A stretch of DNA of 64,000 bases from Aequorivita vitellina (lineage in GTDB: Bacteria; Bacteroidota; Bacteroidia; Flavobacteriales; Flavobacteriaceae), in contig NZ_JAIRBA010000005.1 in assembly GCF_022008365.1 (NCBI RefSeq), positions 62,001-126,000 on the forward strand, given 5' to 3'. The stretch's first letter is position 1; every line of letters begins with the position of its first letter. The notes below the pieces were generated by a model. It searched no databases. It saw only the letters and a program-made list of their open reading frames with translations, and was not told the origin of the DNA. This document shows, in pieces, positions 4,082 to 6,136 of the stretch. Position numbers and translations under genes: made by a program.

Positions 4082-4888
4082 ATGATAATACCAAAAACAA
4101 GAGAAGAAATAGAATTAATGCGCGAAAGTGCTTTGGTAGTATCCCGTACGTTGGGAATGCTCGCAAAGGAAGTAAAACCGGGCGTTACCACCAATCAGCT
4201 TAATAAAATGGCTGAAGATTACATTAGAAGCCAAGATGCCATTCCAGGTTTTCTGGGCTTGTACGATTGCCCTTCTACGCTATTAACTAGTGTAAACGAA
4301 GCGGTGGTTCACGGTTTGCCAACCGATATTCCGTTGAAAGATGGCGATATCGTGGCTATTGACTGTGGCGCAATTAAAAATGGCTTTTATGGCGACCACG
4401 CCTACACTTTTGAAATAGGCGAAATAGATCCAGAAATTAAAAAACTACTGAAAATAACTAAAGAATCACTTTATGTTGGTATCCGCGAATTTAAAGCTGG
4501 CAACCGCGTGGGCGATGTAGGATTTGCAATTCAAAAATATTGCGAAGCACACGGTTACGGCGTTGTTCGTGAATTAGTGGGACATGGTTTGGGAAGAAAA
4601 ATGCACGAAGACCCCGAAATGCCGAATTACGGACGTCGCGGTCGCGGCAAGAAATTTATTGAAGGAATGACCATTGCGTTAGAGCCGATGATAAATATGG
4701 GTACACACAAAGTGAAACAATTAAGCGACGGCTGGACCATTGTTACGCAAGACGGGCAACCAAGCGCACATTTTGAGCACAATATTGCTCTCGTTGACGG
4801 AAAACCCGAATTGCTTTCTACGTTTGATTACGTTTATGAAGCGTTGGGGATTGTAAGTGATGAGGAGAAGGAATTTAGAAATAGCTGA
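4082..4888 (+). CDS. map: Type I methionine aminopeptidase
   Basis: A 268-residue enzyme that removes the initiator methionine from nascent proteins. The five metal ligands of the pita-bread fold can be placed: D in VAIDCGA, D in FYGDHAYTF, H in LVGHGLGRKMHEDP, E in IALEPMINMG and E in SAHFEHNIAL. There is no N-terminal zinc-finger extension, so it is the short type I form. It starts 4 bases after the HAD-like gene. Immediately downstream is the GxxExxY cassette, whose left inverted repeat begins 9 bases after the map stop codon. Confidence 0.97.
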   Translation: MIIPKTREEIELMRESALVVSRTLGMLAKEVKPGVTTNQLNKMAEDYIRSQDAIPGFLGLYDCPSTLLTSVNEAVVHGLPTDIPLKDGDIVAIDCGAIKNGFYGDHAYTFEIGEIDPEIKKLLKITKESLYVGIREFKAGNRVGDVGFAIQKYCEAHGYGVVRELVGHGLGRKMHEDPEMPNYGRRGRGKKFIEGMTIALEPMINMGTHKVKQLSDGWTIVTQDGQPSAHFEHNIALVDGKPELLSTFDYVYEALGIVSDEEKEFRNS

Positions 4889-4896
4889 AGAAGCTA

Positions 4897-4936
4897 TTAC
4901 ACAGAGTTTCGCGGAGGAACACAGAGTTTCACAGAG
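4897..4936 (+). repeat. Left inverted repeat of the GxxExxY cassette
   Basis: A 40-base segment made of four ~10-base units of the form NNNCRCRGAG (ttacacagag, tttcgcggag, aacacagag, tttcacagag; one extra g after the second). It pairs imperfectly with 5318-5358 in inverted orientation, unit for unit. It lies between the map stop and the GxxExxY start. Confidence 0.85.
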
Positions 4937-4950
4937 TAATTTAATTAGAA

Positions 4951-5325
4951 ATGGATAATAAATTAACTGAAATCATTATTGGTTCGGCAATTGAAGTTCA
5001 TCGAAATCTTGGACCTGGCCTTTTGGAATCTGCTTATCAAGAATGCCTTTTATTCGAATTACGATCAAAAGGCTTAATCGTTGAAAAAGAAAAACCTTTA
5101 CCTATAATTTATAAAGACATAAAACTAGACCACGGTTACAGAATTGATTTATTAGTAGAAAGTGAAGTAGTGATAGAGATTAAAACCGTTGAAAGCTTTA
5201 CAGATGTTCATTCGGCTCAAGTATTGACGTATTTAAAATTAGGAAATTATCCTCTTGGATCATTATTCAATTTTCACACATTACTCTTAAAAAACGGTTT
5301 AAAAAGATTTATAAATTCTCAGTGA
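4951..5325 (+). CDS. GxxExxY protein (PD-(D/E)XK nuclease-like fold)
   Basis: A 124-residue protein of the GxxExxY family. The naming motif is G23-L-L-E26-S-A-Y29. A PD-(D/E)XK-like core follows: Y63-R-I-D66 and E76-I-K78. The normal family length is about 120-130 residues, so the gene looks intact. No function has been established for the family; a nuclease role is inferred from the fold only. The gene sits between inverted repeats, and its stop codon (5323-5325) and last sense codon lie inside the right repeat. That suggests gene and repeats move together. Confidence 0.9.
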   Translation: MDNKLTEIIIGSAIEVHRNLGPGLLESAYQECLLFELRSKGLIVEKEKPLPIIYKDIKLDHGYRIDLLVESEVVIEIKTVESFTDVHSAQVLTYLKLGNYPLGSLFNFHTLLLKNGLKRFINSQ

Positions 5326-5358
5326 AACTCCGCGAAACCTTTGTGCAACTCTGCGTAA
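5318..5358 (-). repeat. Right inverted repeat of the GxxExxY cassette
   Basis: Read on the minus strand this 41-base segment gives ttacgcagag, ttgcacaaagg, tttcgcggag, tttcactgag: four units that match the left repeat at 4897-4936 in the same order with about a dozen differences. It contains the stop of the GxxExxY gene and ends 13 bases before the TTG start of the methyltransferase gene. Confidence 0.85.
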
Positions 5359-5371
5359 CAACCCGAAACAT

Positions 5372-6136
5372 TTGTTCAAAAAAATACTAAATACCATCCC
5401 GCGACCATTACTCATTAGATTGAGTATTATAGGAAGACCCATACTTGCTTTTTTTCTAAAAGGGAATAAATATACAGACCCGATTGATGGTAAATCGTAC
5501 CGTAAGTTTCTTCCGTATGGCTATGAAGTTGTTCGTGAAAATGTACTTTCTCCCGGCACTCTTTCTTTGGAAAGACACCGGTTGTTTTGGCTGTATCTTA
5601 AAAATGAAACAGGGTTTTTTACCGAAAATATAAAAGTGCTTCACTTTGCGCCCGAACAAGCGTTTTATAAGAAATTCAGAAAAATGAAAAATCTGGATTA
5701 CGTTACAACCGATCTAAATTCACCCATTGCCGATGTAAAAGCAGATATCTGCGACTTACCTTTTGCAGATAATGAATTCGACTTTATAATCTGCAACCAC
5801 GTTTTGGAACACATTCCCAACGATACAAAAGCCATGCAAGAAATTTATCGCGTTTTGGCACCGGGTGGTACGGCTATTCTTCAAGTTCCGTATAAAGCAG
5901 ATTTGGAAGAAACTTTTGAAGATAACAGTATTACCGACCCAAAAGAACGCGCCAAAATATTTGGACAATACGACCATGTGCGAGTTTATGGAATGGATTA
6001 TTTTACAAAACTAAAAAGTATTGGCTTTAAAGTGGAAGCCGTGGATTACACAAAAACCATTGCTGCCGACGAAGTTGAAAAATATAGACTTCCGTTGGGC
6101 GAATTCATTCCCGTATGTAAAAAATTAGTTCGCTAA
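5372..6136 (+). CDS. Class I SAM-dependent methyltransferase
   Basis: A 254-residue methyltransferase of the Methyltransf_11 type. The Rossmann core runs from about residue 88 to 190: VLHFAPEQAF (motif I region), ADICDLPFADNEFDFIICNHVLEHI (acidic loop and motif IV) and VLAPGGTAILQVP (motif VI). The N-terminal 85 residues carry a hydrophobic stretch (LLIRLSIIGRPILAFFL) and an FLPYGYE segment seen in methyltransferases near surface-glycan genes. The substrate is unknown. The start is a TTG at 5372; no in-frame ATG lies upstream. The GxxExxY right repeat ends just before it, so the native promoter may have been displaced by the insertion. Confidence 0.85.
   Translation: MFKKILNTIPRPLLIRLSIIGRPILAFFLKGNKYTDPIDGKSYRKFLPYGYEVVRENVLSPGTLSLERHRLFWLYLKNETGFFTENIKVLHFAPEQAFYKKFRKMKNLDYVTTDLNSPIADVKADICDLPFADNEFDFIICNHVLEHIPNDTKAMQEIYRVLAPGGTAILQVPYKADLEETFEDNSITDPKERAKIFGQYDHVRVYGMDYFTKLKSIGFKVEAVDYTKTIAADEVEKYRLPLGEFIPVCKKLVR

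Follow-up and report, generated by a model that had tools for sequence, protein, structure and literature searches.

A short gene of the GxxExxY family, enclosed by two inverted arrays of short tandem units, occupies the gap between map and a methyltransferase gene in the window (the whole stretch of 64,000 nucleotides of Aequorivita vitellina DNA that was analyzed). This arrangement raises the question of whether gene and repeats belong together as a minimal mobile or self-maintaining element, as had been proposed in the earlier note on this DNA, and, if so, what moves them. The proposal is supported by the empty sites found in related species and by the co-occurrence of the repeats with the gene, both described below.

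The element and its protein

The features of the element are collected in Table 1. The GxxExxY protein scores well above the curated cut-offs of both profiles it matches, TIGR04256 (E 2.2e-42; 144.1 vs. 35 bits) and PF13366 (E 2e-41; 141.4 vs. 22 bits). The description of the gene as lying inside inverted arms of four ~10-nt units each holds at the positions given in Table 1, as does that of the arms as imperfect repeats (81% and 83% identity over 21 and 18 nt) and of a stop codon inside the right arm (TGA, 5323-5325). Of the unit initially written as NNNCRCRGAG, the length of about 10 nt stands, while the core is better given as CRCNRAG, judging by eye over related arms. A two-unit motif with up to 3 mismatches has 4 matches in the 64-kb window, all of them in the arms, against 0.08 expected, and 0 of 100 shuffles reach 4 matches. 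The neighbors had also been named correctly, with TIGR00500 and PF08241 matches on either side. Between the arms, searches of Pfam and of open reading frames (ORFs) revealed no transposase, in agreement with the earlier note, and no CRISPR, recombinase, or helicase partner; the PD-(D/E)XK gene is the sole gene there, and PF13366 is its only Pfam match.

Table 1. Features of the element and of its neighbors (positions in the window)
Feature	Position	Strand	Remarks
map, type I methionyl aminopeptidase, left neighbor	4082..4888	+	TIGR00500, E 1.2e-85
Putative loop remnant of a left hairpin, outer arm lost	4889..4899		AGAAGCTATTA; by eye, inference
Left arm, four units at 10-nt spacing	4900..4936	+	CACAGAG 4900-4906, CGCGGAG 4910-4916, CACAGAG 4920-4926, CACAGAG 4930-4936
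GxxExxY gene	4951..5325	+	124 aa; TIGR04256 and PF13366 (PDDEXK_3) profile matches
Right arm, four inverted units	5318..5355	-	CGCAGAG, CACAAAG, CGCGGAG, CACTGAG on minus strand; units at 5318-5324, 5328-5334, 5339-5345, 5349-5355
SAM-dependent methyltransferase gene, right neighbor	5372..6136	+	PF08241, E 9.7e-17

Bases 4890-4899 (GAAGCTATTA), to the left of the left arm, resemble by eye the loops of complete hairpins with 10-nt units (L263, TAAAAGCTATTT; L010), and the C-terminus of the map product reads KEFRNS in the window vs. KEFREKEFVL in relatives with an empty site. Given these loop-like bases and the altered last codons of map, the insertion has probably overwritten the last part of map and is itself missing its outer arms.

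Across 82 aligned sequences, that of the window among them, G23, E26, Y29, D66, E76, and K78 do not vary, and Q90 and Y94 are almost constant; the QxxxY that follows the catalytic lysine is the RecB-type signature. The AlphaFold2 model of the window protein has a pLDDT of 95.3. Its best fold matches in the PDB are all weak: the Cas4 protein SSO0001 (E 4e-3), lambda exonuclease (E 0.026), AdnAB (E 0.028), and also LHK exonuclease, with TM-scores below 0.5 and none at E 0.001 or better, and the PD-(D/E)XK homing enzyme I-Bth0305I stands at rank 50 in the list. No relative of solved structure was detected by sequence at E ≤10 with either the protein or a profile. In a PADLOC search with three proteins, one gave a weak Cas4b match (E 2.3e-4), and the other two gave none. 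The predicted fold and the conserved residues support a nuclease, not a particular substrate. A phage origin was considered and rejected, just one relative having been found in a viral collection by two peptide patterns. In the literature searched, where GxxExxY proteins are named in passing only, no function for them was found, and a search by family names, repeat strings, and repeat topics revealed no description of the gene-repeat association in titles or abstract openings. PF13366 is named in one paper, as expanded in Arctic microalgae.

Repeat units around GxxExxY genes

The genome of the window has four GxxExxY matches, each with different inverted short-unit repeats (by eye): CACAGAG at 10-nt spacing in the window, CGCAGATT at L001, CACAAAG-like units at L002, and CGCAAAG at 8 nt at L004, a copy with an internal TAG. 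Inverted pairs without a gene lie elsewhere in this genome, at L005 and at L009/L010, the latter followed by a gene that, from the reading of its start, is presumably parC. In the genus, sampled by 28 genomes with one genome per species, a GxxExxY family match is present in 26, some of which hold broken copies only, and the unit-pair pattern CACAGAGN{1,4}CRCRGAG in 24, up to 55 times per genome, with the reversed control in 0/28. The genome with 55 matches (G023; L256-L267), 99% complete, has no GxxExxY match, and its repeats may stem either from a lost gene or from another mover. A tandem CRCNRRG core stands on both sides of 29 of the 48 intact non-duplicate genus genes (reversed-motif control, 0). 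The remaining 19 have inverted repeats of other short units, CACGAAT, CCGAATTTAT, ACGGATT, CGCAGAT, and CTTGATT among them, assigned by eye and without a formal control; the scores of four (L061, L062, L170, and L178) are weak.

Further relatives came from a genome-collection scan, of which the best 80 of 573, all from other genomes, were surveyed. By record titles, and with many metagenome bins, these 80 are mostly Bacteroidota, accompanied by Anaerolineales (Chloroflexota), Planctomycetota, Alphaproteobacteria, Treponema (Spirochaetota), Nitrospinota, Acidobacteria, and Ignavibacteria; relatives of GxxExxY span at least seven phyla. Upstream of the gene, 60 of these 80 loci have tandem CRCNRRG units within 300 nt; 63 have them downstream and 48 on both sides, against 6, 3, and 2 for the reversed-motif control; CRCNRRG units stand on at least one side in 75 loci and on neither in 5 (L085, L090, L111, L149, and L150). 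Forward-strand units reach 15.3/kb over the 100 nt just before the gene vs. 0.23/kb at 1–2.5 kb, and reverse-strand units reach 16.9/kb over the 100 nt just after it vs. 0.06/kb at 1–2.5 kb, a 60- to 280-fold drop with distance from the gene. This unit-density test (CRCNRRG) took the place of a comparison of inverted-repeat scores, in which just 16 of the 80 loci stood above the 99th percentile of cross-locus pairing, a poor control because arms at different loci resemble each other. Eight of the 80 loci were retained in the counts even though they have no clean ORF of 112–150 aa, which makes their gene ends less sure.

At the level of the phylum, 247 Bacteroidota genomes were searched with one array pattern, CACARAGN{1,3}CRCNRAGN{1,3}CRCNRAG. 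A GxxExxY family match is present in 122 of them, with up to 12 matches per genome, and the three-unit array in 56; the array occurs in 52 of the 122 genomes with the gene vs. 4 of the 125 without it (Fisher 8e-15, uncorrected for kinship). The four gene-less genomes hold five arrays (G183) or one each (G134, G200, and G252), 70 of the 122 gene-bearing genomes are without an array of the one pattern searched, and the reversed array gave 4 matches in 3 genomes. In the window's own family alone, the figures are 12/20 with the gene vs. 1/7 without, which is not significant (p 0.08). Repeats and genes, whose co-occurrence the earlier note had asked to be tested, were found together in the genus, in the 80-locus survey, and in the Bacteroidota genomes; the repeats are not scattered independently of GxxExxY genes but strongly tied to them, and yet the genome with the most pattern copies in the genus has no gene match.

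The type of repeat was further compared with a tree of 120 proteins (48 from the genus and 72 others, including L288 and L289), made by a quick method from few columns and with many open forks. Unit type could be classed for 78 of the 120 rows, with spacing classes of 8/9, 9/11, and 10, and could not for 42. Over the 78 rows, spacing class changes 11 times on the tree vs. a shuffled mean of 36.4 (minimum 30), core type 15 times vs. 29.6 (minimum 24), and CAC/CGC usage 12 times vs. 18.7 (minimum 15), the rows not being independent, as those of one genus clade partly represent the same locus in several species by descent. Outside the genus (43 rows), spacing changes 8 times vs. a shuffled mean of 16.3 (minimum 12) and core type 8 times vs. 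13.2 (minimum 9); CAC/CGC usage there, with 7 changes and a shuffled minimum of 7, is not below the shuffles. Since several clades with different units coexist in one genus, the unit follows the protein and not the host.

A RAYT was also tried as the mover of the repeats and rejected. Y1_Tnp matches are present in 19/28 genus genomes; of the 19 strongest loci, two were dropped because the stretch was too short, and none of the 17 used has units within 450 nt, eleven weaker loci (L334-L339, L346-L350) having been left out. One genome contains a row of three Y1_Tnp genes that have the same score and follow each other at intervals of about 1 kb (G009:C1:116037-118199; L322, L340).

Turnover at intergenic sites and probable exchange between species

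Gene-less copies are hairpins in which two inverted arms of 2–4 short tandem units, 8–11 nt apart, surround a loop. Among 40 fetched pattern sites, 28 of them from G002, G024, and G026 (some sharing a locus) and 12 selected from G023, there are 26 plain inverted doublets (20 R'-R and 6 R-R'), 13 single arms, and 1 triple. The site center falls in an ORF of 90 or more aa at 6/40 of these sites vs. 716/800 random points, and many hairpins lie, by eye, close behind stop codons. Folding, which the earlier note had suggested for each arm, gave a divided answer: three complete hairpins fold strongly (z -6.6, -8.8, and -10.5), but the single arms of the window show no strong fold in the same test. 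A comparison with known RNA families returned one match far below the gathering score (E 0.32) and no other at E ≤1.

The map-methyltransferase junction was matched in 27/28 genus genomes, the window's own included. It holds an intact gene in 5 (G000, G002, G024, G026, and G005, the last within a triple array) and deleted elements in 2 (G017 retains a piece of the gene; in G009 the arms enclose an internal deletion); it is empty, with 35–37 nt, in 10, carries a gene-less hairpin of another unit type in the opposite orientation in 9, and contains other DNA in 1 (G013). The empty site sought at this junction thus exists in 10/27 genomes, and the opposite case, that close relatives all carry the gene here without the repeats, does not apply, since they do not all carry the gene. 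In the triple array of G005 (L376), a remnant, the intact gene, and a remnant follow in a row with arms on each.

A second junction (L049), matched in 28/28 genomes, has the full gene in 3 (G002, G011, and G010), a broken gene in 1 (G005), an empty site of 27–29 nt in 13, a hairpin without the gene in the same position in 2 (G018 and G004), a short other repeat without a hairpin in 2 (G017 and G020), other DNA in 4 (G000, G003, G013, and G025), and flanks that are not adjacent in 3 (G016, G023, and G027). In G002, the gene at this junction is enclosed by two complete hairpins that are almost identical and directly oriented, and the gene of G011 likewise has a complete hairpin in direct orientation on each side. 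It is because of this placement between two direct hairpins that gene-less hairpins (arm', loop, arm) look reversed in comparison with the arms around a gene. Another short repeat, CCTTCGACTTCGCTCAGGACAG or TCACGCTGAGCGCAGTCGAAGCG, was noticed at junctions with GxxExxY hairpins, namely L300 (G018), L302 (G017), L303 (G020), and site L231 in G012 (L271); such junctions seem to attract several repeat families. At the second junction, short tandem arrays of GTAGGCT and GATTAGA type also fill the same intergenic spot in G003 (L301) and G025 (L316).

Gene-less hairpins were followed individually in G002, G024, and G026, which are 94–95% alike at the map locus, and in the more distant G012. At site L233, G026 has a 64-nt hairpin where G002 and G012 are cleanly empty. 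Three species each have a hairpin of their own at site L231, and G012 has none there; at site L238, two species differ in their hairpins and the other two lack one. The hairpins at site L229 look as though they result partly from slow divergence, not replacement. The target-site duplication for which the earlier note had called did not emerge: the alignments of L231, L233, L238, L229, L250, and the second junction contain no consistent one, at most an ambiguous 2–3 A at two clean sites, the other sites being unreadable. This comparison of species shows that gene-bearing and gene-less copies come, go, and change type at fixed intergenic sites.

The gene itself appears to pass between species. 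Around the element shared by G002 and G011, identity is 99% in the element's 500-nt bin, 90–97% for ~2–2.5 kb on each side, and 72–87% beyond, with 85% as the reference at the map locus, whereas the G002-G010 pair is flat at 75–84%. In G001 and G008, the element plus ~50 nt on each side (by eye) is ~97% identical, with flanks at ~80%; in G012 and G018, the element is 98% alike, the flank figure being less safe because one flank is rearranged. Over 109 same-locus pairs, the identity of the element is above that of the flanks by over 10 points in 11 vs. 4 of 1246 control windows and below it by over 10 points in 11 vs. 23 of 1246, and in 79 the gene is within 8 points of the flanks. The pairs are not independent: the 11 positive ones come from four loci, two of which contribute six and three pairs, and a single locus contributes 10 of the 11 negative ones. 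Near-vs.-far flank identity is mixed, most pairs are without a peak, and the element is set apart only in comparison with the control windows. These identity profiles support, at four loci, that species have exchanged the gene without a change of locus; for two pairs, the tract was inspected in detail. At one locus (L396-L401; also L363, L365, L371, L378, and L392), two GxxExxY allele classes ~67–74% alike occur between flanks ~78–85% alike; for example, the alleles of G002 and G026 (99% alike) belong to one class and that of G024 to the other.

A proposed nuclease-based counterpart of REPIN-RAYT and its alternatives

Taken together, we consider it fairly probable that GxxExxY supplies the coding part of a small, mobile system of gene and repeats working like REPIN-RAYT, in which a RecB/Cas4-type nuclease replaces the HUH transposase. 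In this reading, clades of the GxxExxY protein have their own hairpin repeats, and the gene-less hairpins scattered between genes are the non-autonomous form. The data show that the unit spacing in the arms around a gene follows its clade and, by comparison of species, that gene-bearing and gene-less copies are gained, lost, and type-switched at fixed intergenic sites. A passage of the gene between species at one and the same locus is supported at the four loci, the tracts in the two pairs examined covering a few kb or ~50 nt of flank. The RecB/Cas4-type nuclease may recognize and cut the units of its own clade, perhaps when these are extruded as a hairpin in which successive units lie about one helical turn from each other, and repair of the cut may copy the hairpin, or the hairpin with the gene, into a new site. 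The spread of the gene-repeat system is well supported; the action of the nuclease on its own repeats is what we infer. That this PD-(D/E)XK nuclease by itself drives the spread of the hairpins and of its own gene, through cognate cutting and repair copying, is a tentative proposal, and we know of no enzyme of this fold that transposes hairpins.

The resemblance to REPIN-RAYT (PMC2817692, PMC3116915) is extensive: a single chromosomal gene lies between inverted repeats, which are sometimes alternating arrays; gene and repeat type covary (here in spacing and core, with CAC/CGC usage not doing so outside the genus); gene-less, hairpin-forming inverted doublets are dispersed between genes; and the repeats are commoner where the gene is present. 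The enzyme, however, is a PD-(D/E)XK nuclease, with PF13366 as its only Pfam match, unrelated to the HUH/Y1 transposase (PF01797). In addition, the arms here consist of tandem 7-nt cores at 8–11-nt spacing vs. REPs of 20–40 nt, up to 55 matches of one pattern were counted vs. more than 100 REPs per genome in PMC2817692, and homing-like gene exchange is seen here at a few fixed loci. A GTAG/CGTC tag at the REP end is described in PMC3733652. Since the enzyme differs despite the matching anatomy and behavior, the GxxExxY system is not a member of REPIN-RAYT.

MITEs and other IS-derived miniature elements are short intergenic inverted repeats with gene-bearing and gene-less forms, and they share these properties with the system described here, together with an internally deleted copy (G009); unlike them, the latter has no DDE transposase and no clear target-site duplication, its arms are built of tandem units, and its coding part is only 124 codons long. 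It could be imagined that another host or mobile enzyme, e.g., a RAYT or an IS enzyme, moves the hairpins, and that GxxExxY genes merely live inside them. The abundance of hairpins in G023 and the nuclease fold of GxxExxY, not that of a known transposase, agree with such a passenger role, but it is made improbable by the tracking of the GxxExxY tree by unit spacing, by the gene being present in 52 of the 56 repeat-bearing Bacteroidota genomes, and by the lack of units at all 17 strong loci of Y1_Tnp, the sole other mover screened, of which the repeat-rich G001, G002, and G011 have no match at all. Another possibility is homing only, in which GxxExxY would cut a hairpin or an empty allele, repair would copy the gene in with co-conversion of the flanks, and gene-less hairpins would be cut sites or relics that are themselves immobile. 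I-SspI is a PD-(D/E)XK homing endonuclease, and with it and I-Bth0305I, which appears in the fold list, GxxExxY has in common the fold superfamily, exchange tracts centered on the gene, and empty alleles. The identity peak on the G002-G011 element, well above the map locus, the short tract beyond the arms in G001-G008, the excess of too-similar and too-different alleles at a few loci, and the hairpin, gene, and empty states at one spot of the second junction all fit homing. We nevertheless regard homing alone as unlikely, as gene-less hairpins are present or absent where no gene is seen (site L233), and unlike hairpins occupy the same place in close species (site L231); moreover, GxxExxY is carried with hairpins between genes, not in introns or inteins, and gene-less hairpins are dispersed.

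That the repeats are transcription terminators or RNA-stability hairpins under selection, with a cellular nuclease gene among them by chance, would accord with the many hairpins near behind stop codons and with the strong folding of the three complete hairpins tested. It is very hard to reconcile with a unit spacing that tracks the protein clade, a unit density that falls so steeply away from the gene, single window arms that do not fold, and changes of presence and type between species 94–95% alike at the map locus, and we give it very little credence. Hardly better placed is a defense or genome-immunity module, whose nuclease would attack foreign DNA and whose repeats would mark or regulate the locus. 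The weak Cas4b match and Cas4 as the best, though weak, fold match point that way, and GxxExxY shares with Cas4, lambda exonuclease, and AdnAB, all of RecB-type PD-(D/E)XK, the nearly invariant QxxxY after the catalytic lysine; in contrast to these enzymes, it is a minimal domain on its own, with a helical GxxExxY part at the N-terminus. No partner gene lies between the arms, the other two proteins compared with PADLOC have no match, a genome may contain up to 12 GxxExxY matches, and gene-less hairpins are scattered, so that a defensive role seems highly improbable.

If the reading of GxxExxY as the coding part of a mobile gene-repeat system is true, it would be the second REP-like system to have evolved, independently of the first, and record titles, many of them those of metagenome bins, would place it in at least seven phyla. 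The GxxExxY family would gain a function, and the short-unit intergenic repeats of Bacteroidota and other phyla would gain a cause. The pairing of protein and repeat is specific enough for a direct test with cognate vs. non-cognate hairpins. REP-type partnerships between a gene and its repeats would then have evolved at least twice, with unrelated enzymes.
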